The notes below the pieces were generated by a model that made no database searches, was not told where the DNA came from, and saw nothing but the letters and a program-made list of their open reading frames with translations. Source: a virus. From it: a stretch of DNA of 64,000 nucleotides. This document shows, piece by piece, positions 10,607 to 43,733 of this stretch (within the stretch, counting starts at the first letter, position 1; each line of letters opens with the position of its first letter). The position numbers were made by a program, and so were the translations under genes. The stretch is taken from positions 186,865 through 250,864 of IMG/VR virus record IMGVR_UViG_3300049793_000366; one strand, given 5' to 3'.

Positions 10607-10638
10607 CAAATATACGGACATTTTTTCTAATTTGCAAA
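10607..10638 (-). promoter_or_regulatory. Bacteroidetes-type housekeeping promoter
   Basis: On the minus strand: TTTG (10635-10638), 20 bases, TATATTTG (10607-10614), an exact consensus. ATGTCCG directly precedes the -7 element. It overlaps the end of the upstream gene and lies 24 bases before the ATG at 10582, which decides that start. Confidence 0.8.
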
Positions 10639-24003: not shown

Positions 24004-24891
24004 TTATTCGTCTATTGAGTTTTTTACTTTCCAGGCTTCGTATGTATTTAATATCAATCCTGATATAGTCATTGGACCAATACCACCTGGGACTGGTGTT
24101 ATCCATGAGCATTTTTTAGAAACATTTTCGAAATCAACATCACCAACAATTTTATCATCTACTTTGTTTATACCAACATCGATTATAATTGCACCATCTT
24201 TAATCATATCTGTTGTTAGAAATTTTGGTTTCCCAACTGCTACGATAACAATATCTGCTCTTTTGGTTTCTTCGATTAAAAGCTCTCTGGGTGTGTTTAT
24301 GTCACATGATGTAACAGTTGAACGTCCAATGTTAAAGTCGTTACCTAACATTATAGAAACAGGTTTACCGACTATATTAGAACGACCAATAACAACAACG
24401 TGTCTACCTTTTGTTTCAATTTGATAGTATTGAAGTAATTTTAAGATACCATATGCTGTAGCTGGTCTCATAGAACGTTGACCCATAGCCATCTTACCGA
24501 AGTTAAGAGGGTGAAATCCATCGATGTCTTTATTTGGATCTATTTCATTGATAATAGAATCAGCCGTTATGTGAATAGGTAAGGGTAATTGTACAATGAA
24601 TCCATCAATAGAATGATTACTATTCAGTTTACGAATTTCATTTAGTAACTCAATCTTAGTAATAGACTCATCGAATCTAATAAGCTGTGATTTTATATTT
24701 GCTTTCTCACACGCTTTTAATTTAGCCTTAACATATGATTCACTCGCTGGATTATTACCAATTAACACAACAGCCATGCTAGGTGTTGTAGAAGTTAATC
24801 TATCACCTAATTGATTATTGTGAAATTCTATTTTAGCTTTCACCTCACTTATTAAATGATGCGAAACCGATTTACCATCTAGTAGATTCAT
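24004..24891 (-). CDS. folD: FolD: methylenetetrahydrofolate dehydrogenase/cyclohydrolase
   Basis: A 295-residue bifunctional enzyme interconverting methylene-, methenyl- and formyl-tetrahydrofolate with NADP. Motifs: SYVKAKLKACE (catalytic Lys), IVQLPLP, DIDGFHP, the nucleotide-binding VVVIGRSNIVGKP and PVPGGIGPMTIS. Together with ThyA and DHFR it supplies one-carbon units for dTMP synthesis. Its start overlaps the previous stop as ATGA. FolD is seldom reported in phages. Confidence 0.96.
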   Translation of the reverse strand: MNLLDGKSVSHHLISEVKAKIEFHNNQLGDRLTSTTPSMAVVLIGNNPASESYVKAKLKACEKANIKSQLIRFDESITKIELLNEIRKLNSNHSIDGFIVQLPLPIHITADSIINEIDPNKDIDGFHPLNFGKMAMGQRSMRPATAYGILKLLQYYQIETKGRHVVVIGRSNIVGKPVSIMLGNDFNIGRSTVTSCDINTPRELLIEETKRADIVIVAVGKPKFLTTDMIKDGAIIIDVGINKVDDKIVGDVDFENVSKKCSWITPVPGGIGPMTISGLILNTYEAWKVKNSIDE

Positions 24892-28286: not shown

Positions 28287-30176
28287 ATGAATGAATTAAA
28301 AGAGGGAGATGTTATTGTAGGACAAATTGACTTCAATACCAACGGTAACGCTTATCTCAGCGTGGATGGACACGATGATGTGTACATCTATAAAAAGAAC
28401 ACTTTAAATGCTCTACACTTAGATACGGTTGAGGTTCAACTACTTATGAGAGAGGGTAAACTAGAAGGTGTTGTTAAAGAAGTAGTAGGTAGATTTAAAA
28501 CTGAATGGGTTGGAACCGTTCAACGAAATAAGAATCTGGTATTTGTTTTACCAGATAGCAATAAAACCCCCGTAGACTTCTTCATTCCAGAAGATGCATC
28601 AATGGGTGCTAAAGATAAACAAAAGGTCGTGGTGAGACTTATTAAGTGGAAAAAAGGCACTAAATCACCATTTGCTAAGATTATTAAAATTTTAGGTGAA
28701 GTAGGTGATAATAACACCGAAATGAATGCGATTATGTATGAGTATGGCTTGCCTGTTGAATTTCCGAAAGAAGTTGAATTAGAAGCTGAATTGATATCAT
28801 TTGAAATTCCACCTACTGAGATTGCTAAACGTAGAGACATGAGAAGTGTTACTACATTTACAATAGATCCGGTAGATGCGAGAGATTTTGATGATGCATT
28901 ATCAGTTGAGGTTAAAGAAGACCATGTTGAAATTGGTGTTCACATCGCTGATGTAACTCACTATGTTAAACCAGGTACTAAATTAGAAGAAGAAGCAATT
29001 AAAAGAGCTACTTCTGTTTACTTGGTTGATAGATGTGTTCCGATGTTACCTGAGAGATTATCGAATGGTGTTTGTTCACTAAGACCACATGAAGAAAAAT
29101 TGTGTTACTCTGTTATCTTTAAAATGGATTCAGAAGGTAATGTGTTAGATACATGGTATGGTCGTACTATAATCTATTCTGATAGAAGATTTAGTTATGA
29201 AGAAGCACAAGAAATAATTGAAGGCAAGGCTGGTGATTTTTCTGATGAATTAACATTGTTCAATACTCTTGCTAAGAAAATCAGAGGACGTAGAATTAAA
29301 AGTGGTTCATTGGAAATGGATTCAGCAGAAGTGCGATTTAGATTAGATGAACGCGGTAAACCACTTGATGTGTATTTTAAAATACAAAAGGATGCTAATA
29401 AATTAATTGAAGAGTTTATGTTGTTAGCTAATCAAGCAGTTGCTAAGATATTATCTGATAACTCATATAATTCAGTTTATAGAGTTCACGATAAACCAAG
29501 CCAAGAAAAATTAGAGGCACTTACTGGTGTTGCTACTAACTTTGGTTATAAAGTTAATTTATATCAACCAGAGAAAATAAAAGAATCATTGAATAGTTTA
29601 TTGGCCGAAATTAAAGGTAAACCAGAAGAGAATATGATTTCTACTTTGGTTACAAGGTCAATGGCTAAAGCAACATATACAATTAAAAATATTGGGCATT
29701 ATGGATTAGGCTTTACTCACTATTCACATTTCACATCACCTATTAGACGATATCCTGATATGATGTCTCATAGATTACTTGATGATTATTTAACAAAGAA
29801 ACCTAAGGGAAATCCTACTGTTGTTGAACAACAAGCTAAGTGGTCTTCTGAGAGAGAATTAATTGCGGCTAAAGCACAACGAGATTCTATTAAATATAAA
29901 CAAGCTGAATATTTACAAGATAAAATTGGTAAAGTTTTCAAAGGTGTTGTATCTGGTGTTACTGATTGGGGAATGTATGTTGAGATAATTGAAAACAAAT
30001 GTGAGGGTATGATTCGCTTTAAAGATATTGGTGATGATATATTCATACCAGATGTAAACGCATATCAAGTTGTAGGTCATAAGACTGGTCAAATCATAAG
30101 ATTGGGTGATGAGATAATGGTCAGTGTAGCTGGTGTTAATCTTGAAAAGAAGTCGATAGATTTAAAAGTATTCTAA
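28287..30176 (+). CDS. rnr: RNase R-type 3'-5' exoribonuclease
   Basis: A 629-residue RNB-family enzyme that digests RNA from the 3' end. It has an N-terminal cold-shock-like OB region (about residues 1-170), an RNB domain with FTIDPVDARDFDDALSVE (the catalytic Asp cluster), VGVHIADV-like IGVHIADVTHYV, HYGLGFTHYSHFTSPIRRYPD, and a C-terminal S1 domain (VFKGVVSGVTDWGMYVEI). It is shorter than bacterial RNase R, lacking the N-terminal helix-turn-helix and the basic tail. Rare in phages; it could free nucleotides from host RNA or trim phage RNA. Confidence 0.95.
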   Translation: MNELKEGDVIVGQIDFNTNGNAYLSVDGHDDVYIYKKNTLNALHLDTVEVQLLMREGKLEGVVKEVVGRFKTEWVGTVQRNKNLVFVLPDSNKTPVDFFIPEDASMGAKDKQKVVVRLIKWKKGTKSPFAKIIKILGEVGDNNTEMNAIMYEYGLPVEFPKEVELEAELISFEIPPTEIAKRRDMRSVTTFTIDPVDARDFDDALSVEVKEDHVEIGVHIADVTHYVKPGTKLEEEAIKRATSVYLVDRCVPMLPERLSNGVCSLRPHEEKLCYSVIFKMDSEGNVLDTWYGRTIIYSDRRFSYEEAQEIIEGKAGDFSDELTLFNTLAKKIRGRRIKSGSLEMDSAEVRFRLDERGKPLDVYFKIQKDANKLIEEFMLLANQAVAKILSDNSYNSVYRVHDKPSQEKLEALTGVATNFGYKVNLYQPEKIKESLNSLLAEIKGKPEENMISTLVTRSMAKATYTIKNIGHYGLGFTHYSHFTSPIRRYPDMMSHRLLDDYLTKKPKGNPTVVEQQAKWSSERELIAAKAQRDSIKYKQAEYLQDKIGKVFKGVVSGVTDWGMYVEIIENKCEGMIRFKDIGDDIFIPDVNAYQVVGHKTGQIIRLGDEIMVSVAGVNLEKKSIDLKVF

Positions 30177-30212: not shown

Positions 30213-31178
30213 TTATTGTATAATAATTTTCTTGACTTCTATTGTTCTATCTGTGTATTCTATATGTTGAATATACATACCTGGTTTTGTGTCAGTAGTT
30301 TCAACACCAGTTAAGTCATATGTAGTTATCAATTTAACAACTTTTTGTGATTGATTGTCAATAGATATAATACCAGAATATTCGTATTGACCATTGAAGT
30401 CAGTTTGTTTAAGTCTATAATAATTTATAGCATCTTTAATGAACATATAATCTTTGAATGTATAACTCAATAAAGTAGTTGATGTACCAGCACCATCTAT
30501 GTTTGCTACTTTCTCCCAGTTAATACCATCACTACTTCTTTCTATTGTATAGAAGTCATTATTCATTTCGGTTGCTGTTTTCCAAGATAGTAAATTATGC
30601 GAATTATAATTGAAGCCATCGAATGATAATAACTCAATTGGTAGTGGGTTAGAACAATTTATAACGAAGTTATCAAAGTCATAGAAATATACTGCTGTTC
30701 CTGGAGGTCCCGGAGGTCCTGTGACATAGCTGTTTATTGTAGCATTTGTTATTAAACAAAATCTAAATTGTATAATGTTATTAGGTAAACCAGAGTAAGT
30801 ATGCGTAACGCTATTGTATAATCCGGTGTATGTATCTAATGTAGTCCAGGTCGAACCGTTTGTAGTGTATTGAAAGTATAAAAAATCAAATCCATTCTGT
30901 ATGATACCATTGTGTAGAAAGGTTACGGAAAGACCACTGATGCAGTTTGTCATATTTAAAACAGGACTAACCATAGTAACAGTTGCGCTATTTGGGTATG
31001 GTGTTGTGCCTATATTTGTTGTAAGCCAAGAGCTACCACCATATACTTGAATTCCCGCACCATTTGTAACAGACCAGCCGCCTAATCCTGTAAAATTATA
31101 TGTTGTTGGATAAGATATTTGGCTAAATCCAACTAAGCTAATTAAGGATATGAATAAAGTTATTATAAATCTTTTCAT
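30213..31178 (-). CDS. Secreted protein with type IX secretion sorting domain
   Basis: A 321-residue protein with signal peptide MKRFIITLFISLISLVGFS, a beta-rich domain (about 20-170) with a short collagen-like TGPPGPPGT, a fibronectin-like region LPIELLSFDGFNYNSHNLLS...TIERSSDGINWEKV, and a C-terminus (about 275-321) with LITTYDLTGVETTD and KPGMYIQHIEY then KKIIIQ. That order is typical of Bacteroidetes type IX (Por) secretion cargo. It should cross the outer membrane through the host system. A phage could use it to alter the cell surface or block other phages; that is inference. Confidence 0.8.
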   Translation of the reverse strand: MKRFIITLFISLISLVGFSQISYPTTYNFTGLGGWSVTNGAGIQVYGGSSWLTTNIGTTPYPNSATVTMVSPVLNMTNCISGLSVTFLHNGIIQNGFDFLYFQYTTNGSTWTTLDTYTGLYNSVTHTYSGLPNNIIQFRFCLITNATINSYVTGPPGPPGTAVYFYDFDNFVINCSNPLPIELLSFDGFNYNSHNLLSWKTATEMNNDFYTIERSSDGINWEKVANIDGAGTSTTLLSYTFKDYMFIKDAINYYRLKQTDFNGQYEYSGIISIDNQSQKVVKLITTYDLTGVETTDTKPGMYIQHIEYTDRTIEVKKIIIQ

Positions 31179-31539: not shown

Positions 31540-32130
31540 ATGAGAATTAAGAATTTTAGTGAATTTTCAATCAACGAGGATGCTGAACCGTTTAACGATT
31601 CGCCAGAAACATATATTGATATAGCTTTAACTAAGTTGAAGAAGAAGATTGATGGTATGTTTGAAGCTGAAGCTGAGGGTGAAGAGAGCGAAGGTGATGA
31701 TGAAAAACCAGTGGTTACTGAAAAGACACCAGAGCAAGCAAGAGAAGATAAGAAGAAATCTGATGAAACTTCTTTTACTGAGTTGGGTCTTAAACTTGAG
31801 TCGTCTGAGATTAGTAAATACTCTAAATTATATGATTCATTGACTGTAAAATTCTCTGATGAGAAGTATTTATATCACCTTTATGTTATGATGAAATTAG
31901 AAGATGCTATATCTAAAGAGCCTGGTACTGAGATTGAACAATCTGGTGTAGATGAGGCTTACATAGTATTCAAGAAATATGATATACAATCATTGGAAAT
32001 TGTTGGTCAGCTTAGTAAAAATATCAAAACAAGCGAAATCACACAAGATTATATTGTTGACTTAAAACTTGAAGTTGATGAGGCGTTTGGTGATGCTGAT
32101 GAAGAAGAATTTAAGATAGAGACCGAATAA
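31540..32130 (+). CDS. Acidic protein with packaging-type N-terminus
   Basis: A 196-residue protein. The N-terminus MRIKNFSEFSINEDAEP is a strong example of the recurrent peptide, with I-N-E at the likely cleavage site. The protein is very acidic with a Glu/Lys-rich coiled-coil-like stretch (residues 35-75). Its charge and N-terminus suit a prohead core or internal protein. Coupled to the next gene by TAATG. Confidence 0.6.
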   Translation: MRIKNFSEFSINEDAEPFNDSPETYIDIALTKLKKKIDGMFEAEAEGEESEGDDEKPVVTEKTPEQAREDKKKSDETSFTELGLKLESSEISKYSKLYDSLTVKFSDEKYLYHLYVMMKLEDAISKEPGTEIEQSGVDEAYIVFKKYDIQSLEIVGQLSKNIKTSEITQDYIVDLKLEVDEAFGDADEEEFKIETE

Positions 32131-32543
32131 TGAAACACATCAAGCGTTTTGAAAATATCGACAGTAAAGATTACTCAAGAATAGAATCTAGGAATTACGT
32201 CACTTGTGAGGAATGTTCTGGTACAGGTGATGCTCCTGTTGATGGTTCTTGCGAGAATTGTTATGGTAAAGGTCGATATGCTGTTATGCTTGATGATAAA
32301 GAAGTAGTAGATTTTAAAAGAAATGAGAGGCTTTTTAATGAGCTTAAATTGGAATTAAATCCACCACGATATACTGAATTTTGTGTAATAGATGGTGTCT
32401 ATACGCAAGAGTTCATGGTTAAGATTATTTCTGCTGAGAGTCTATCGATGTTACCAAAATACATTAGTATTGGTTTAGATATCTATGTTGTACCAGATAT
32501 GGGTGGAGTTAAAATTAATGTTTCCCGTGATATGGATAAGTAA
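32130..32543 (+). CDS. Zinc-motif protein with packaging-type N-terminus
   Basis: A 137-residue protein. The N-terminus MKHIKRFENIDSKD fits the recurrent peptide. Then CEECSGTGDAPVDGSCENC and YGKGR give two C-x-x-C-x-G-x-G units as in the zinc centre of DnaJ, here only half of the usual four. The C-terminal part is alpha/beta and unrecognised. No J domain (HPD) is present, so it is not a DnaJ. It might bind zinc and protein. Confidence 0.6.
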   Translation: MKHIKRFENIDSKDYSRIESRNYVTCEECSGTGDAPVDGSCENCYGKGRYAVMLDDKEVVDFKRNERLFNELKLELNPPRYTEFCVIDGVYTQEFMVKIISAESLSMLPKYISIGLDIYVVPDMGGVKINVSRDMDK

Positions 32544-32561
32544 TTTATTACTATATAATCC

Positions 32562-33077
32562 ATGTTTAATTTCGTAGCAAGCCAAAGAACCATTTCAAAG
32601 ATAAAGCAGGGTTCAAAATACTTTACACCATACTTAGGTATGGCTTTCACTACTGAGGATAAAGACGGTAGAAAATTCAGAATAAATGATAAAGAAAAAT
32701 TTGCAAAAGATTACTTTGAAAAGAGTGGTCGAATGGCGTATTCACAGGGTAAAATTGGTAGCATAAATTTCTTTGTTGACCACTATATTACTGATAGTTT
32801 AGTTCTTTGTTATTATAATGATGAAGAAGTAGCTTTTGAATATTTAGACCACACAGCTAAAGAAAAGGGAGTAGATGCTTATCTTGGATCTATGATAAAG
32901 AAAGTAGAATCTATTTACGCAGAAGAAGTTACTTCAAAGAAAGAGAATATGACCGAGAGAGATATTAATCAAATGCCTGGTGATGCGAGTAAGTTATATA
33001 CAAATCCTGGTCAAGTTACATATGACGATATTAAGAAGTATATGCAACAAAAGAAAAATGGTGGAACTAAACCTTAG
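32562..33077 (+). CDS. Unknown protein (171 aa)
   Basis: A soluble protein with a basic start (MFNFVASQRTISKIKQGSKY), an alpha/beta middle (INFFVDHYITDSLVLCYYND) and a disordered polar end with Lys/Gly. It ends in a 4-base overlap (TTAG) with the convergent ATPase gene. Not recognised. Confidence 0.55.
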   Translation: MFNFVASQRTISKIKQGSKYFTPYLGMAFTTEDKDGRKFRINDKEKFAKDYFEKSGRMAYSQGKIGSINFFVDHYITDSLVLCYYNDEEVAFEYLDHTAKEKGVDAYLGSMIKKVESIYAEEVTSKKENMTERDINQMPGDASKLYTNPGQVTYDDIKKYMQQKKNGGTKP

Positions 33078-34150
33078 TCAAATATTTCGGCACCAGCATA
33101 TTTGTTCTGAACAAACAAGAATGATACACCAGTTGATTTAAAAAGGTCTTCACCTAAATCCATGATATCTTCATCATCATTGTCATAATACCATCTAACT
33201 TTTGGTAATGTACATTTTTTGAGAAGTTTTATTATATCCAAAACATATTTTTCTGAACCACTACTGATGAAATCTAAAGAGATATCTAATGTTAGGTTCT
33301 GTGGGTTTGTATCGCAATACTCTTTGAACCACTCATAGATTGGTTTCCAGAATTGGTCAGCGTGAGAAGGATATGTGCGACCCTTAATTAAGAAGGTCTT
33401 CGTGCCTACATCAAACTTAATCTCTGGTGTGTAACCAGTGCTTGGTATAAATAATGACTTAAGTTTTTTATCAGTTGTTCTGTCTTCAATTTCACACGTT
33501 ATACGCATTGATGAATTAATCAAACCATAATCTCTTGTTTTGTTCCCTTTAGAATCAAATATCTTAAAGTTTACGTATTGATTGTCTGCTACTAATACAT
33601 TACCGGAAACAGCTTCTTTCCATCTTTCTAAATCGAAAGTGTGTACTTTCAAAATATTTAATGATGCGATGATAGTGATGTTTCTTTTAGCACATAGCGA
33701 ATTGAAGAATTCAATCTGTGCTTGTAATCTATCTTCGAATCCTTTGAATGTTGGACCCAGTATGGTGAATAAGTTTATGGTATCAATGAATAAAAATTCA
33801 ACATTACCAAGCAATTCTACATCAAACCCAAGAGTCATATCATCTAATCCCTTAGAGTTAAACACTATGTTGATTGGGTCTGGTATATCGTAGATGCCAG
33901 TTATAACACCAGCCTTTATATCGTTCAGTGGTTTATTTTCCAATACCGCGTAAATACGCTTTCTCATATATTCATCACTCGAATCGAGTCCGTAGTAGAT
34001 AATATTCTTTTCGTCTTTTACTGCTTTAGCGGCAATGTTAGCAAGTACGGTTGTCTTACCCGATTGATAGTGGGAAGCAACTATATTAAATTTACCTTCA
34101 ACTATATTGAAGTTATGCGTTTCTTCTGTAAGAATTAAGTCTCTACTCAT
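33074..34150 (-). CDS. RecA/DnaB-fold ATPase fused to a SiaC-like domain
   Basis: A 358-residue protein with two parts. Residues about 15-230 form a RecA/DnaB-like P-loop domain: Walker A FNIVASHYQSGKTT, strand IIYYGLDSSDEY, Walker B NVEFLFIDTINLF and sensor strand NITIIASLN. Residues about 236-347 match the SiaC (DUF1987) type: GYTPEIKFDVGTKTFLIKG, QFWKPIYEWFKEY and RWYYDNDDEDIMDLGED. SiaC proteins bind partner kinases or cyclases in bacterial signalling; the usual N-T-S-S phospho-loop reads I-S-S-G-S here. I know of no described protein with this fusion. It is coupled to a membrane protein by a one-base overlap. Confidence 0.7.
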   Translation of the reverse strand: MSRDLILTEETHNFNIVEGKFNIVASHYQSGKTTVLANIAAKAVKDEKNIIYYGLDSSDEYMRKRIYAVLENKPLNDIKAGVITGIYDIPDPINIVFNSKGLDDMTLGFDVELLGNVEFLFIDTINLFTILGPTFKGFEDRLQAQIEFFNSLCAKRNITIIASLNILKVHTFDLERWKEAVSGNVLVADNQYVNFKIFDSKGNKTRDYGLINSSMRITCEIEDRTTDKKLKSLFIPSTGYTPEIKFDVGTKTFLIKGRTYPSHADQFWKPIYEWFKEYCDTNPQNLTLDISLDFISSGSEKYVLDIIKLLKKCTLPKVRWYYDNDDEDIMDLGEDLFKSTGVSFLFVQNKYAGAEIFD

Positions 34151-34599
34151 TAGATAAGATTAAAAAGGTCAAGGTGTAAATGAAAATGGTTCAAAACTAA
34201 AATCATCAATATTGCTGATTTTATTGTTAGATAAATGTATGAGATATATTTGTTTAGGTCGTTACATTTCTTGTTTAGTATTTTACCGATTATGTTTTGT
34301 ATTATCTGTACAAAAAATGCAAAAATAAATAGCATAGCAAATACTTTCCAACTACCTGATATTAAACCCAATATACACCAGATTAATTCTGATAGTGCTA
34401 TAAATCCAGTGAACATACCAGCGTTGTAATCGTCACTTGTTCTATAATCTGCTTTTTTGGGAGAGCGTTTGTTTATTTTCTTAAAGGCTTCTGCCCATTC
34501 TGCTACCTTCCAAGTCTTGTGGTGATTGAAAAGATTGATTAAATCCAATAGGAATATGAATAATCCGATAGCGTAAAATATGTGTCCAAGTGTCTGCAT
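34150..34599 (-). CDS. Multi-span membrane protein (149 aa)
   Basis: Hydrophobic segments near residues 5-22, 60-80, 84-104 and 120-140, and a basic loop with KKINKRSPKKADY. It is the first gene after a perfect host-type promoter and overlaps the ATPase-SiaC gene by one base, so the two are probably made together and may form a membrane-linked pair. Confidence 0.6.
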   Translation of the reverse strand: MQTLGHIFYAIGLFIFLLDLINLFNHHKTWKVAEWAEAFKKINKRSPKKADYRTSDDYNAGMFTGFIALSELIWCILGLISGSWKVFAMLFIFAFFVQIIQNIIGKILNKKCNDLNKYISYIYLTIKSAILMILVLNHFHLHLDLFNLI

Positions 34600-34648: not shown

Positions 34649-34680
34649 CAAATATATGGACTTTTTTACTAAACGCCAAA
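34649..34680 (-). promoter_or_regulatory. Bacteroidetes-type housekeeping promoter
   Basis: On the minus strand: TTTG (34677-34680), 20 bases, TATATTTG (34649-34656), an exact consensus. AAGTCCA directly precedes the -7 element; a second box (TTGTCCA on the plus strand, 34685-34691) lies just upstream of the -33 element. Confidence 0.8.
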
Positions 34681-34744: not shown

Positions 34745-37456
34745 ATGGCAGTGACCCCATTATATAAAGCATTAAAGTCAAATGGTACATCATTCTATGC
34801 TTTTCCTGGTGCAGCAGAAGATATTTCAGCAGCATATCAGAACGAAAATTATAGGATGTATTTCTCAAAATTTGTTCTTCTTAATTTCCCTAAACAGAAT
34901 TTAAATCCAGGAACGATGTCAAACCCAGTACAATGGGATTTTGAGAATAGCTTTGTTAAGTCCAACTTATCGGTTGCTTCTGACTACGCTGACCAGTTAG
35001 TTGAATCTCTTAGAAACTACGTTGCTAACCATGAGGTTACAATCAGAGATTCGAAGTTAAATAATACTGAATTTTTCTATGATAATAATCAATTATCAAC
35101 AACGACTGAGAAGATTTTTTGGAAATGGTGTACTAAATTAAATGTACTTGACTTAGAAAGAGCAGTACCAGGTGATGAGTACTTTGATAATTTACAAGAA
35201 TTTGAAGCTAATAATATTGCGGATGATACATACTTCCCTGAGATACTATGGCGCGAGAGAGAGGTTATTGATTTTAGACCAGTTTATTTTTATCAAACTG
35301 GATATGGTACTTATTCATTAGGTCAGTTTTTAGAGATTGAGTTTCAAGGTTCTACTAACTTTAGAGATGGTGATAAAATAGTATTTAGTGATATTTCAAA
35401 CTCATCTCTTATTGTAGATGGTGTTTATGATGGATTCCAAGTTGATATTTTAAAAGTACTTCCAGCAGGTGCTACCGCTGGTGATAAAATAATTGTTGAT
35501 TTAGTTTATACATCATCAACTGAGATTGAAACGATTGGTACTGCTAAGATAGTTTATAGTAGATTAGTTCAGTATATCGGTGAAGTAAATGGTATAAATA
35601 ACGTACAAGAAGCTAATCGCTCTTATACAGAGGTTTATGCTCACATCCCGGATCACACTGGTAAAACACCGGATATTTTATTTAGAACAAAAGTTGATGT
35701 TAACTATAAGCCGAATATGATTTATCCGATATTACCATCTCAATTTCAACCTGAGATTATCGGAGCAGAAAACTTCAACTCTCCTATTGTTAATACGCCA
35801 CAGAATTATCCAGGTGACTTCTACGGTCAGTTTGATACAGATGATTTCACATATGAAACATCTTCTGGTGACTCTCTTAGAAGAAGCGGTGATTACTTTG
35901 GTGTACAGGGTGATTTAAATGCGCCTATTTATAGCCCATCTACTTTAGATGGTTTATGTGTTGACTTTGATAGAACACATTACGTTAAGATGAATGTTAT
36001 TGACAGAGAACTTAATACGTTCGATGAATTCAATGCTCTTAGTGTAAATGGTCAACCACCAGAAGATTTCGAATTTAATGCTATTCTTTGGTACTACACT
36101 GTTGAAGATGCTGTTAAGGGTGGTATTACTACAAATATGTATGGTATTACATTCTTAAATCATCCTAAACAAAATGTTGCTTATGAAGATGATAAACCAT
36201 TAGTTAGAATAAAGTTACCTTCTTACAAGAAGTTAGTTGCTAATGATGGACAAGATGGTACATCATACGCATTCAGTTTGAATTTGAACTTCAATATCAT
36301 AAATGATAATCCACAAGATACGTATAATCCGACTGCTATAAATTCGTTATTTAGTATGAATTTATTCAACGAGGCTATGAAGAGATTGGCTGAGTCTAAT
36401 GATTCATTCATGAAGCTTAATGCTAATTATACTGGTGTAGTTGAGGATATTGATGGTTTAAGAGGTTTGTTATATACACAAACTGATTTTGCTACAATCA
36501 ATTCGAGAATGTCTTTCTTAGAATCTCTATTGAATGCTTATCAATCAATGCAGTTACAAAGCTCTGATACTATTGAGGTTCAAACGAATTTATCAACATC
36601 ACCGCCTTTGGTTCAGTTGATGTCTAAGGATGCAACTTACTATAAAATTGAAAAAGTTAATACAACTGATTTATATAATACATCAGGTATAATACCTTTA
36701 AATATCAATGTACCAACTAATAAGAATTTCTTAGTTAATATTATTAACAATGACCAAACACAATTCACACTTGCGTCAAACACAAGATTAACAGTTGTTT
36801 TGGATAGAGATTTAGATTATAGACAATCAGTTGATATCGTTATTACTGCTGATGACTTCGCAACACAAAATAAAGAATTGGATATTTATATCAAGTTTTA
36901 TGATGGTTCACCAAACGGCTTACCTGTTGAGACACCATTGATTACTAAAGTTAATTTACCAGTTTTCTATAACCAGTCTACTCAAGATTTATCAATTTCT
37001 AAGAAGTGGGACCAGACTATAATTTACCCAGTATTGGATGATGTAGCAAGACCTATATTAATCAATTCTGATGTAACTATGGATATTCCAGTATCGGTTG
37101 CTAACCTATCTAATATGGTTAAAGCTGGTGATACATTCTTGGTTAATAATTTAATTATTGATCCGATTTCACCGACTGATTATTCTGGACAATATGTGGT
37201 TAAGGCTGTGTCATCAACTATGTCAACATCTACAATTAAATTAGATATTTCTGATAAAGTTGAATTGGTTCAGTATGGTATATCAACATCTCAAATTACT
37301 GGTTATCCAGTTGAGATACATGGTACATCATCAGCATTAGCTTCTATGCCTTCTCTTACTTTCAATAAAGGAGTTAAGTATAGAGTTACGAGAGTTGACC
37401 AATTTGATGCGTCTTCTTTATCGGCTCGTTATTTAATTGAGAAGATTCTAAACTAA
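34745..37456 (+). CDS. Large virion protein, probably tail/baseplate
   Basis: A 903-residue soluble protein, Thr/Ser/Asn-rich and mostly beta, with few Cys and no membrane span. It begins MAVTPLYKALKSNGTSFYAF. A central segment (about 540-600) is helical, and the C-terminal 300 residues look like repeated beta domains (SVDIVITADDF; VDMDIPVSVAN-like text). Size, composition and the late-type promoter point to a virion component such as a baseplate wedge or fibre part. I cannot match a named T4 protein. Confidence 0.6.
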   Translation: MAVTPLYKALKSNGTSFYAFPGAAEDISAAYQNENYRMYFSKFVLLNFPKQNLNPGTMSNPVQWDFENSFVKSNLSVASDYADQLVESLRNYVANHEVTIRDSKLNNTEFFYDNNQLSTTTEKIFWKWCTKLNVLDLERAVPGDEYFDNLQEFEANNIADDTYFPEILWREREVIDFRPVYFYQTGYGTYSLGQFLEIEFQGSTNFRDGDKIVFSDISNSSLIVDGVYDGFQVDILKVLPAGATAGDKIIVDLVYTSSTEIETIGTAKIVYSRLVQYIGEVNGINNVQEANRSYTEVYAHIPDHTGKTPDILFRTKVDVNYKPNMIYPILPSQFQPEIIGAENFNSPIVNTPQNYPGDFYGQFDTDDFTYETSSGDSLRRSGDYFGVQGDLNAPIYSPSTLDGLCVDFDRTHYVKMNVIDRELNTFDEFNALSVNGQPPEDFEFNAILWYYTVEDAVKGGITTNMYGITFLNHPKQNVAYEDDKPLVRIKLPSYKKLVANDGQDGTSYAFSLNLNFNIINDNPQDTYNPTAINSLFSMNLFNEAMKRLAESNDSFMKLNANYTGVVEDIDGLRGLLYTQTDFATINSRMSFLESLLNAYQSMQLQSSDTIEVQTNLSTSPPLVQLMSKDATYYKIEKVNTTDLYNTSGIIPLNINVPTNKNFLVNIINNDQTQFTLASNTRLTVVLDRDLDYRQSVDIVITADDFATQNKELDIYIKFYDGSPNGLPVETPLITKVNLPVFYNQSTQDLSISKKWDQTIIYPVLDDVARPILINSDVTMDIPVSVANLSNMVKAGDTFLVNNLIIDPISPTDYSGQYVVKAVSSTMSTSTIKLDISDKVELVQYGISTSQITGYPVEIHGTSSALASMPSLTFNKGVKYRVTRVDQFDASSLSARYLIEKILN

Positions 37457-37504: not shown

Positions 37505-37900
37505 ATGTTATATATCATATTAGTTATAATTTTTGTCCGTTCGGCATATGTTCTTTATCAGAATTATCGATTTGATAAATTCACTAAGAACGTCAGCGAA
37601 TTTTTAATTGGTCAGAATTTACATCTTATGCCAAATTTATGGAATTCCAAATCTATGAGAATGGATGAGCTTCCATTGCCAAAATTATCAATAGATAATA
37701 TAAATCTGTGTGATATCATAGTTAAACCAATAGTATCGGAAAAAACCAATACAGTAGAAGCGTATATTTTTACTTGGTCTAAGAAACTTACCAACTTTGA
37801 TATACTTATGGGCTATAACATGACTCATAAGAAGATAGATAGTATAAAACTCGATAAGGGAGAAATTCGAGATAAAAACATTGATAGATTACTGCAATGA
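37505..37900 (+). CDS. Membrane-anchored unknown protein (131 aa)
   Basis: An N-terminal membrane segment (MLYIILVIIFVRSAYVLY), then a soluble part (LPLPKLSIDNINLCDIIVKP; EAYIFTWSKKLTNFDILMGY). It overlaps the DHFR gene by 4 bases. Not recognised. Confidence 0.6.
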   Translation: MLYIILVIIFVRSAYVLYQNYRFDKFTKNVSEFLIGQNLHLMPNLWNSKSMRMDELPLPKLSIDNINLCDIIVKPIVSEKTNTVEAYIFTWSKKLTNFDILMGYNMTHKKIDSIKLDKGEIRDKNIDRLLQ

Positions 37901-38361
37901 TAACATTAATAGCCGCTTGTTCAAAAAATAGAGTTATAGGGAAAGATAACAAGCTCATATGGCACATCCCAGACGATTTAAAGAGGTTTAAGAAGCTTAC
38001 AGGTGGTAATCCTATATTGATGGGTAGAAAGACTTTTGAGTCTATTGGAAGAGCTTTACCGAACAGAGTTAATATCATATTAACGAGAGACAAAACATTT
38101 ACGGCACCTGGTTGTCTAATCTATAATAACTTAGAAGAAGTCATAGCATTATATCGCTCAAATCTTTGGGTTATAGGTGGTTCTGAAATATACAGTCAAT
38201 TACTATCATATGCTGATTGCGTTGAATTAACCTTATTGGATAAAGAGTTTGAGGGTGATTCTTATTTTCCTGAATTACCAAGTGTTTGGAAAATAGATTC
38301 TAAAGAAGACTATTCACACGAAGGTCTTGATTACTCATACATCACGTATAGAAAGTCTTAA
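37897..38361 (+). CDS. folA: Dihydrofolate reductase
   Basis: A 154-residue enzyme reducing dihydrofolate to tetrahydrofolate with NADPH. Motifs: IAACSKNRVIGKDNKLIWHI, PDDLKRFKKLT (catalytic Asp), NPILMGRKTFESIG, LPNRVNIILTR and LWVIGGSEIYSQLL. Normal family length. It regenerates the cofactor oxidised by ThyA. It is coupled to the membrane-protein gene before it and shares its last bases (TTAA) with the convergent gene. Confidence 0.97.
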   Translation: MITLIAACSKNRVIGKDNKLIWHIPDDLKRFKKLTGGNPILMGRKTFESIGRALPNRVNIILTRDKTFTAPGCLIYNNLEEVIALYRSNLWVIGGSEIYSQLLSYADCVELTLLDKEFEGDSYFPELPSVWKIDSKEDYSHEGLDYSYITYRKS

Positions 38362-38959: not shown

Positions 38960-40867
38960 TTATCCTCCGTTATTTCCTGGTTTAACTGGTGTACCCGGTT
39001 TCAATGTTACCTTACGAGTGATGATTGCCGTTTCTTTATTCTTAGATGGATCATCAATAATAGAAGGTACTGTATTAGGAGTAATGGCATCAGTTAATGC
39101 TATTGTATTAAGTGCAGATACATTTGAAGCTGAATCGTATAGTAAGTAAGTTCCGCTATAAATAACAGTCGTTACATTGTTTGCTGTTGCTGTGATATAG
39201 AATACGTTAATACCTGATTCGTATATTCTTCTTACATCGTTTATCTTACTCTTAGTTAATTTGAATATAACTACACCTCTCTCCAAATCAACTTGATTTG
39301 TTTCTAAGTATAATGAAGACTCTACTGCTATTTGTGTATTCTTGATAACCAATTTAACATCACCGTTGTTGATTAAATTCATCAGTGTTATTTGATTGTT
39401 TTCAATTTGAGATGCAAGTTTAAATAATATAACGTTATCGAATGGATATACTAATATTTGTAATTTACCATTACCATACCACACATCTTTCTTAACCTTA
39501 ACTGAATCAGATTTACCAATTACGTTAAATCTATCAACCATTACAGGGAATGGTACTTTAATTTGCTCAATGACAACATTTCCACTTCCGTTACCATTGC
39601 CGCCATTTCCATTACCACCATTTCCATTACCACCATTTCCATTACCGCTACCATCATCACCAAACCCAGATTTACTTCTGTTTTTAGAATCACCTCTTAA
39701 TCTGTTTTGTAAATCAGCTAAGTCACCTACTGCATTTTTAAATGAGTAAATCTTAGGCTTATTAGCATCTTCTAAATTAATTTTAGTTAAGTTAAGTGAG
39801 TATTTAGCAACTTCATCTTGTAACATACCATAAGATGCTCGTCTCAATATTTGAGTACCATCTACTTGGTCAATTAATCTCATTTCAACGTCTATAATAG
39901 CTGTCGTTGTTGAGAATTTTATAATAGGTCTGAATTCAATCTTTTCGTTGAAATTATCGTACTGTATAAAGTGAAAAGTTTTACCTTTGATATTTTGTTC
40001 AAACATAGTAACTACGTATTCGGCATAGTATCTGTTACCTAAGGTGAAAGAGTTATCAATGAATTGTTTGAACTCACCAGCACTATCATTGTACATACCA
40101 TATATCTCAAAGAAATCACCTTGTGTTGATTCTTCGATTTTTACACCAAGTCTTTCGAATTCTGGTGTTTGTGGTGTTGATACTGATACTTTAGGACCAA
40201 GTAAATAAGTTTTAACTTTATTAATGGTCTGTGTAGTATTGATAAATTGAAAATCTATAAAAATAGGTGCTGATAAGCTTAATCCAAAATTATTAGTTAA
40301 GTTAGCATTTACTGAATTTACCTTAGGTTTATTGTTCTCTCTTTGATTAGAAATAGCATTAGCAGAAGGTACGTTAAATGTTAAGTATTTACCCCATAGT
40401 TTCTCTTGAAAGAATAATGGTGGTGCTGAGAAGTCAAGTAATGTAGTAGTTCCGGCATCAGTGAAATCAAAGAAAAATTTACTTAAATAGAATGGCTTTT
40501 TATTGTCAAAGTCATATGTGAATAATTCTACGTGAAATCCTATATGTTCTCCAAATGTATAGTTTGTTGGGAAGTGAAGTTTTACTGTGTCGTATTTAAT
40601 TGGAAATCCGCCAGCAAAGTCTTTTAATTGTAAAAAGTTATAATTATCTACATCGACTAAGCCAAATTTATTTGTTACAGAGTCTAACTGAAATAACTGA
40701 TTTATGCGTGTATTTTTAGTACCTGATGTATCACCAGATAGAAAAGTCCATTCATTTTTCTGGATATCAACCAGTAATTTATATGGCTCTCCGATAAGGT
40801 TATTATCATCATAGATATACTCAAGTAATACATCCCTATCAACTTTAATAAATTTGGAAATTCTCAT
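38960..40867 (-). CDS. Large virion protein with Gly-Asn repeat linker
   Basis: A 635-residue protein. The N-terminal about 380 residues are beta-rich (YTFGEHIGFHVELFTYDF; FHFIQYDNFNEKIEFRPIIK). A linker near 400-425 repeats G-N-G-G-N three times. The C-terminal domain includes FPVMVDRFNVIGKSDSVKVK and ends with Pro/Gly. The layout suits a tail fibre or baseplate decoration protein; no named match. It follows a late-type motif and a terminator. Confidence 0.55.
   Translation of the reverse strand: MRISKFIKVDRDVLLEYIYDDNNLIGEPYKLLVDIQKNEWTFLSGDTSGTKNTRINQLFQLDSVTNKFGLVDVDNYNFLQLKDFAGGFPIKYDTVKLHFPTNYTFGEHIGFHVELFTYDFDNKKPFYLSKFFFDFTDAGTTTLLDFSAPPLFFQEKLWGKYLTFNVPSANAISNQRENNKPKVNSVNANLTNNFGLSLSAPIFIDFQFINTTQTINKVKTYLLGPKVSVSTPQTPEFERLGVKIEESTQGDFFEIYGMYNDSAGEFKQFIDNSFTLGNRYYAEYVVTMFEQNIKGKTFHFIQYDNFNEKIEFRPIIKFSTTTAIIDVEMRLIDQVDGTQILRRASYGMLQDEVAKYSLNLTKINLEDANKPKIYSFKNAVGDLADLQNRLRGDSKNRSKSGFGDDGSGNGNGGNGNGGNGNGGNGNGSGNVVIEQIKVPFPVMVDRFNVIGKSDSVKVKKDVWYGNGKLQILVYPFDNVILFKLASQIENNQITLMNLINNGDVKLVIKNTQIAVESSLYLETNQVDLERGVVIFKLTKSKINDVRRIYESGINVFYITATANNVTTVIYSGTYLLYDSASNVSALNTIALTDAITPNTVPSIIDDPSKNKETAIITRKVTLKPGTPVKPGNNGG
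39600..39649. repeat. 15-bp tandem repeat encoding G-N-G-G-N
   Basis: Three near-identical copies of CACCATTTCCATTAC (39601-39645, first copy with one change) and flanking partial copies, all in frame within the 38960-40867 gene. It codes for a flexible linker and is prone to copy-number change. Confidence 0.8.
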
Positions 40868-42764: not shown

Positions 42765-43733
42765 TTAAACATCGAAGAAATCGTCCTCATCCGTTACAGA
42801 TGTAGTAGATGCCTGCTTTGAAGTTGCGTTTTCGTTAAAATCAAAGTCTTCTGTTGAAGCGACATTTTCAGTTTTAGTAGTTGTGTTTGAAGAAGTAAAG
42901 TTAGCTGAACTTTTTCCTGTTAAGAATGCGATAATATCATTGATTTTACCATGTTCTTCGTCAGATAATTTCTTAGCTGAAAATTCTTCTAAATCATGCT
43001 CTCTCTCAAGAAGTGCTTTCTTAATAACTTCATGATACTTAGGCTCGATTTTCGCATCAGCACCAACTGGTACAGCTTTGAACTGTCCGTCTTTGTAAAT
43101 TTGTACTGGTGTTGTTTGGCTTGCGAACTGTGACATTTTATAGTCAGGGTAAGTTTCACCACCTGTTTCGATTTCTTTTACGTAAAGAATGAAATCTTTA
43201 CCAGCCGAAAGGTCGAATACGTTGCAAGGAGATCCAGTGATTTCACCTGATTTCTCAGCAGCGATTTTGTCTTTAATAGTTTTACCGTATTGGTAAATCA
43301 TAATTTTTCCTACTGTTTCTGGTTGATTTTCATCTTCCAATACAAGAACGTATGAGTAATACTTCTTAGAGTAGTTAAGACATTTTGCTTTTTCTTGAAG
43401 CATCGCGTTCTTAGAGTTCGCCATTGAATAGTACAACTCAGTAAGTGGACACTTCTCGTTAAAGTTTTTTGGACTATCAAACCATCCGCTAAGTTCTTTA
43501 GGGTTTTTGATATTCACATAATGTGTAATTTTTTCAAGAGCTAATTGCCCAAGAGTTCCCGATTTTGTAAGGTTAGGTAGAAATCTTACTTTCGCTCTAT
43601 ATCCTTTTTTCTTGTCCTTACACTTGGACATATCGATTCTGTAAATGCCGTCTGCACTCACTTGTTTTTTTTCCTCTAAGAAGTTCATCTTGGAGTCCAA
43701 ATTGCCGAATAAATCATCATTCATTTCTGCCAT
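42765..43733 (-). CDS. 32: gp32-like single-strand DNA-binding protein
   Basis: A 322-residue protein with the T4 gp32 plan: a short N-terminal region, an OB core with VRFLPN, LEKITHYVNIKNPK (His) and EKCPLTELYYSM...KCLNYSKKYYSYVLVLEDENQPETVGK, then IMIYQYGKTIKDKI, and a disordered Ser/Thr linker ending in an acidic tail DEDDFFDV. It coats single-stranded DNA in replication and recombination. The acidic tail is where T4 gp32 contacts partners. A 7-bp hairpin lies in the leader, and a terminator follows the gene. Confidence 0.88.
   Translation of the reverse strand: MAEMNDDLFGNLDSKMNFLEEKKQVSADGIYRIDMSKCKDKKKGYRAKVRFLPNLTKSGTLGQLALEKITHYVNIKNPKELSGWFDSPKNFNEKCPLTELYYSMANSKNAMLQEKAKCLNYSKKYYSYVLVLEDENQPETVGKIMIYQYGKTIKDKIAAEKSGEITGSPCNVFDLSAGKDFILYVKEIETGGETYPDYKMSQFASQTTPVQIYKDGQFKAVPVGADAKIEPKYHEVIKKALLEREHDLEEFSAKKLSDEEHGKINDIIAFLTGKSSANFTSSNTTTKTENVASTEDFDFNENATSKQASTTSVTDEDDFFDV

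Follow-up and report, generated by a model that had tools for sequence, protein, structure and literature searches.

A phage gene that joins a truncated DnaB/RecA-type ATPase to a SiaC domain and is coupled to a membrane protein gene

We found that a single gene of a huge phage joins a shortened ATPase of the DnaB/RecA type to a C-terminal SiaC domain. The gene lies in a 64,000-nucleotide stretch of DNA (here called the window) that is part of a 507,910-base (~508-kb) IMG/VR virus record. The ATPase-SiaC architecture is established, and as a provisional but quite possible reading of it we propose that the fusion protein is a membrane-linked nucleotide switch whose SiaC output domain docks on a partner-switching protein of the host. 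The features on which the argument turns are as follows.

33074..34150, minus strand: fusion gene, 358 aa, mini-DnaB/RecA ATPase plus SiaC (DUF1987) domain (profile searches, structure match, codon usage)
33464..34150, minus strand: N-terminal DnaB/gp41-like RecA ATPase domain, residues 1-229 (profile and structure matches, alignment)
33119..33448, minus strand: C-terminal SiaC domain, residues 235-344 (profile and fold)
34150..34599, minus strand: 149-aa membrane protein with a C-terminal NHFHLHLD motif (hydrophobic spans, TAATG overlap, relatives)
34649..34680, minus strand: Bacteroidota-type promoter TTTG-N20-TATATTTG, which precedes the membrane gene by 57 nt

The window comes from a relative of the Mahaphages

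The structural protein encoded at 34745-37456 showed 54-56% identity to its counterparts in LR756502 (642 kb) and LR745206 (about 635 kb) and was more distantly related to proteins of 636- and 735-kb genomes, and a second protein (38960-40867; 50-53% identity to its LR756502 and LR745206 counterparts) ranked the relatives in the same way. The window phage thus shares structural proteins with these 634- to 735-kb genomes, which correspond in size to the four largest members of the Mahaphage clade; for members of at least 634 kb, replication in Bacteroidetes has been predicted (PMC7162821). The phage carrying the fusion gene probably infects Bacteroidota, and such a host fits with the TTTG-N20-TATATTTG promoter and with the enrichment of TANNTTTG upstream of the phage genes, described below.

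One uninterrupted frame encodes both domains

The fusion gene begins with ATG at 34150 and runs for 358 codons with zero internal stops, in agreement with the preliminary description, which had read it as one frame joining the two domains. In this common frame, the codon-preference log-odds were +0.30 and +0.34 for the two halves, in line with phage codon usage, and the other frames were negative; the two halves were also equal in G+C (0.335 and 0.344). No ATG, GTG, or TTG is present at the SiaC boundary (L230, where stand-alone SiaC proteins begin), and the nearest ATG, at codon 215, is without a ribosome site. A frame error splitting two genes, which the preliminary description had named as a finding that would overturn it, was thus rejected on the basis of the single frame, the matched codon use, and the lack of a junction start codon. 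That the fusion is known from one record only would also suit an assembly chimera or frame error that fused two unrelated genes, but the same three observations, together with the fact that the upstream half occupies the site of a homologous mini-ATPase in a relative, make such an artifact highly improbable.

The C-terminal part is a SiaC domain with an altered phosphosite

Pfam family PF09345 (SiaC) covered residues 235-344 with 96.7 bits (E=9.4e-28), about four times the gathering cut-off of 24.5 bits, which bears out the SiaC assignment proposed from the sequence. The fusion protein also scored 57.8 bits against the NCBIfam SiaC equivalog NF038265, which is below the 150-bit cut-off of that model. 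Among solved structures, the P. aeruginosa SiaC chains 6k4f and 6kko were the sole convincing matches in the PDB (E=2e-10). An AlphaFold2 model of the fusion, built with 36 cellular SiaC sequences, placed residues 231-350 at a pLDDT of about 89-97, and a Foldseek search returned SiaC exclusively at E<0.001 (7e6g, TMt 0.89, rmsd 1.7 A). The structure prediction proposed earlier as a check therefore yielded a SiaC fold for the C-terminal part. The PHROGs search gave no match to a phage family of the SiaC type.

In P. aeruginosa, SiaB adds a phosphate to SiaC at T68 and SiaA strips it off again (PMC8457831, PMC7647112, PMC7278518). Unphosphorylated PaSiaC contacts the stalk of the SiaD cyclase through Y65, N67, T68, S69, and I71, and an N67A/T68A/S69A triple mutant loses SiaD binding (PMC8457831, PMC7647112, PMC7278518); phosphorylation of T68 by SiaB likewise prevents SiaC from binding SiaD (PMC8457831, PMC7647112). 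The structure of SiaC relates it to the STAS antagonists (PMC8457831, PMC7647112), and phospho-switched docking is what it has in common with the STAS partner-switching proteins SpoIIAA/RsbV and with HsbA and BgrV, which modulate diguanylate cyclases, although SiaC forms a separate Pfam family.

The phage domain resembles the cellular SiaC proteins of P. aeruginosa and Bacteroidota (PF09345/DUF1987; NF038265) over the full length of the domain, in its predicted fold, in having a phosphosite residue, and in the acidic WYYD-DDED segment, which is retained together with the pocket Trp (W320); the sequence at residues 320-335 is WYYDNDDEDIMDLGED. The phosphosite motif was correctly noted beforehand as altered: it reads ISSGS (residues 295-299), and the equivalent of PaSiaC T68 is S297, so that a phosphorylatable hydroxyl is retained. 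Among 81 cellular SiaC sequences, this position is Thr in 74 and Ser in 7. The phage residues at PaSiaC Y65, N67, T68, S69, and I71 are F294, S296, S297, G298, and E300, respectively, and S262 stands in place of Glu33. The phage domain thus differs from its cellular counterparts at PaSiaC E33, Y65, N67, S69, and I71, and three of the residues replaced (Tyr65, Asn67, and Glu33) are invariant in the 81 cellular sequences. Because contact residues are altered and the PaSiaC triple mutant loses SiaD, the canonical partners may go unbound.

These substitutions bear on the main rival to a switch that docks on a host protein. The SiaC domain could have been repurposed inside the phage to provide docking or dimerization for a phage protein such as the membrane protein, leaving the host SiaB/SiaC pathway untouched. 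We regard this as possible in view of the substitutions at partner-contact positions that do not vary among cellular SiaC proteins, the great length of the phage branch, the absence of SiaB and SiaA from the phage, and the dimeric state of PaSiaC when bound to its target (PMC8457831). The retention of the phosphosite hydroxyl, the fold, W320, and WYYD-DDED, on the other hand, suggests a maintained interaction surface. The branch in question measured 2.4 changes per site in our tree, against a median of 0.12 for end branches, and its placement was without support, so that a recent capture of SiaC from a Bacteroidota host was not supported. Searches of the phage record gave no match to SiaB (DUF6272) or to a SpoIIE phosphatase (SiaA), which would fit a partner in the host without proving that there is one.

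The N-terminal part is a truncated and eroded DnaB-like ATPase

The preliminary description had assigned the N-terminal part to the DnaB/RecA-type ATPases. This held for the RecA core, with its Walker A motif (SGKTT, residues 30-34) and Walker B motif (FLFID, ending at D123), with the qualification that the domain is truncated and its catalytic residues are eroded. In PHROGs, residues 17-84 matched phrog_19, the T4 gp41-type helicase family (E=2e-8), and Pfam DnaB_C matched residues 18-84 with 19.7 bits, below the gathering cut-off of 27. Comparison of the ATPase part with four gp41 proteins by hhalign gave p=6e-8, a mixed alignment that included gp41 rows was in register at Walker A and Walker B, and residues 16-222 were collinear with the DnaB-like helicases of Mahaphages (p=1e-5). 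In addition to the collinear core, Walker A, and the Walker B Asp, the domain shares the RIxAxLxxxPxxDI helix with the RecA domain of DnaB_C and T4 gp41. It differs from them in being only about 230 aa long, in having a shortened middle segment, in lacking the N-terminal helicase domain (about 12 residues precede the core), and in carrying D56 at the position of the catalytic Glu (SLEMS segment) and N165 at that of the sensor-strand Gln.

The predicted fold of the full-length protein was poor in the ATPase half. A second model, of the ATPase half alone, matched RecA, DnaB, and KaiC folds with a mean pLDDT of 55; it constitutes weak independent evidence because its confidence is low and it was built on the gp41 rows.

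These features bear on whether the ATPase functions in replication or recombination (as a helicase or RecA-like enzyme) under regulation through phosphorylation of the SiaC domain. The similarity to DnaB and gp41 speaks for such an enzyme, as does the fact that no DnaB-type replicative helicase distinct from the fusion was detected across the 508-kb record. Yet the protein lacks the helicase N-terminal domain and has other residues in place of the catalytic Glu and sensor Gln, and the gene is placed between tail-type genes. Moreover, a separate DnaB-like helicase of 447-454 aa is encoded by each of four relatives, and the record, at 508 kb against 634-642 kb for the nearest two relatives, may lack part of the phage genome and so merely miss the helicase gene. 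We consider a working enzyme of this kind very unlikely; as the eroded catalytic residues and the separate helicases of the relatives indicate, the fusion ATPase is unlikely to be the phage's replicative helicase. The Glu-to-Asp and Gln-to-Asn changes point instead to slow hydrolysis, as in a nucleotide switch.

The fusion gene is coupled to a membrane protein gene

The fusion gene overlaps the upstream gene by 1 base (TAATG), and the 149-aa product of that gene has 3-4 hydrophobic spans, in keeping with the predicted coupling to a multi-span membrane protein. The host-type promoter upstream of the pair belongs to a class that looks real: TANNTTTG occurred at most 90 nt upstream of 15 of 84 genes, whereas a control offset gave 4 of 84. 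Expression of the pair may be early, as the preliminary description suggested. Beyond the TTTG and TANNTTTG boxes, the promoters at 10607-10638 and 34649-34680 (minus strand) have a common extended block, A(5-6)-(T)GTCC(A/G)TATATTTG, which is possibly a phage-specific promoter element.

The two genes form a cassette that lies between structural genes, on the opposite strand, with its own host-type promoter. An accessory, patchy cassette in such a place would suit a counterdefence or superinfection exclusion system, in which the membrane protein and ATPase block later infection or a host defense and the SiaC domain is a target-specific adaptor. We think this unlikely, since it is inferred solely from gene placement and the membrane protein has no similarity to known exclusion proteins in Pfam, PHROGs, or NCBIfam.

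Several other genes of the window were identified in passing. A complete RNase R/RNB exoribonuclease (RNB E=3e-111) that includes cold-shock and S1 domains is encoded at 28287-30176 (plus strand), FolD (THF dehydrogenase/cyclohydrolase) at 24004-24891 (minus strand), a DHFR-like protein, recognized by eye, at 37897-38361 (plus strand), and a gp32-type single-strand binding protein at 42765-43733 (minus strand). The 321-aa protein encoded at 30213-31178 (minus strand) looks secreted, with an N-terminal signal-like stretch; its C-terminal half is of the Bacteroidota surface-protein type (LPIELLSFDG...YYRLKQTDFNGQYEYS) with a possible T9SS-like tail, and no Pfam or NCBIfam family matched it above the cut-off. 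Several neighboring phage proteins begin with a similar motif, M-K/R-x-I-K-x-F-x-x-F-x-x-N/K-E, both in the window (31540-31590 and 32130-32170) and in other records (L008:8849-8790, L009:8260-8200, L197:6287-6230, and L198:5838-5780); it recalls N-terminal targeting tags, for instance, the T4 capsid targeting sequence.

Relatives keep the membrane gene without SiaC

Searches of other phages for the fusion and the adjacent membrane gene, which had been suggested as a check, recovered the membrane gene in four relatives and the fusion in none. The membrane gene occupies the same position in LR756502, LR745206, and two IMG/VR contigs, adjoining a 900-aa structural protein gene on the opposite strand, and its product ends in NHF(H/Y)LH(L/I)D in the window phage and the relatives alike. 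LR745206 and the two contigs have the membrane gene alone, with neither ATPase nor SiaC. In LR756502, it is followed by a gene for a 154-aa stand-alone P-loop mini-ATPase (L197:5435-5899) with the same one-base TAATG overlap. No SiaC was found in the four huge relatives.

The mini-ATPase resembles the fusion in place, strand relation, and gene overlap, and both the Glu-to-Asp and Gln-to-Asn changes are common to the two proteins and present in 0 of 8 helicases in a joint alignment; it differs in lacking the SiaC domain and in its weak pairwise similarity to the window ATPase (shuffle ranks of 2/500 to 54/500 depending on the scoring scheme, which is marginal and not significant). The two ATPases are likely to be homologous, a conclusion that we draw from position, gene coupling, and the common substitutions, the pairwise similarity alone being marginal. 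A two-row profile of the mini-ATPases found no further copy in seven related records, its remaining weak matches being mostly the relatives' helicases. The small neighbors of 196 and 171 aa did not match the 147-aa neighbor in L008.

Because the relatives keep the membrane gene, in one case with a SiaC-free mini-ATPase, SiaC can be seen as an add-on to the pair of membrane protein and mini-ATPase, which appears to have gained this output domain in the window phage. The parsimonious history is that the membrane protein came first, that the mini-ATPase was coupled to it in one branch, and that SiaC was added in the window phage.

SiaC is a stand-alone protein in the bacteria examined

As the preliminary description had stated, SiaC is a stand-alone protein in bacteria: all 80 of the cellular SiaC genes that we recovered encode small separate proteins, their open frames being no longer than about 190 codons, as do all 37 SiaC matches in 396 Bacteroidota genomes. 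Two apparent long SiaC frames, L103 and L104, were rejected, SiaB and SiaC being parted by a stop in each. SiaB-like kinase genes adjoin SiaC in 65 of the 80 bacterial loci, and records whose titles name Bacteroidota account for 61 of the SiaC loci. Most cellular SiaC genes thus lie beside a SiaB kinase gene, whereas the phage domain forms one protein with an ATPase, and the phage has neither SiaB nor SiaA. One Bacteroidales MAG (G005, the genome of L076) has 17 separate SiaC matches, a count that suggests that SiaC-type switching has expanded greatly in some gut Bacteroidales.

The earlier statement that no other such fusion was known also withstood a wider search. No ATPase-SiaC fusion was present among the approximately 80 cellular SiaC loci or in the 396 Bacteroidota genomes, a genome scan with the full-length fusion protein returned no match, and 50,697 phage records contained no SiaC of any kind at E values up to 1. 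Short peptide patterns revealed no further phage SiaC or fusion in IMG/VR, which is weaker evidence of absence because distant copies can escape such patterns.

A possible switch acting on the host

In the proposed membrane-linked switch, the membrane protein and the mini-DnaB ATPase form a cotranslated pair, as is evident from the coupling of their genes, which recurs in a relative. The ATPase would bind ATP and, judging from the Glu-to-Asp and Gln-to-Asn changes, hydrolyze it slowly or not at all. Sequence and predicted fold indicate that it gained the SiaC domain as an output, which may dock on a protein of host partner switching. The most likely target is a SiaB-type kinase, which the domain would occupy as a decoy substrate; the alternative is the protein normally controlled by host SiaC. 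The ATP state and the membrane position would set the timing of docking. The frequent occurrence of SiaB-like genes beside SiaC indicates that a host partner would be commonly available. Because the phage SiaC branch is so long, the function may have drifted, and with no other phage found to carry the fusion, function can draw no support from conservation of the architecture. The more specific version, in which a membrane-tethered ATP switch with a hijacked SiaC domain takes part in bacterial partner switching by capturing or misdirecting, in the course of infection, the SiaB-type kinase or SiaC target of the host, is somewhat unlikely.

SiaC-type partner switching is widespread in Bacteroidota, where its targets are largely unknown. 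A phage SiaC protein could flag a pathway worth attacking and serve as a probe for its partners. Here, a huge phage pairs a degenerate helicase-like ATPase with a signaling domain, and the relative that keeps the ATPase alone at the same site offers a natural before-and-after comparison.
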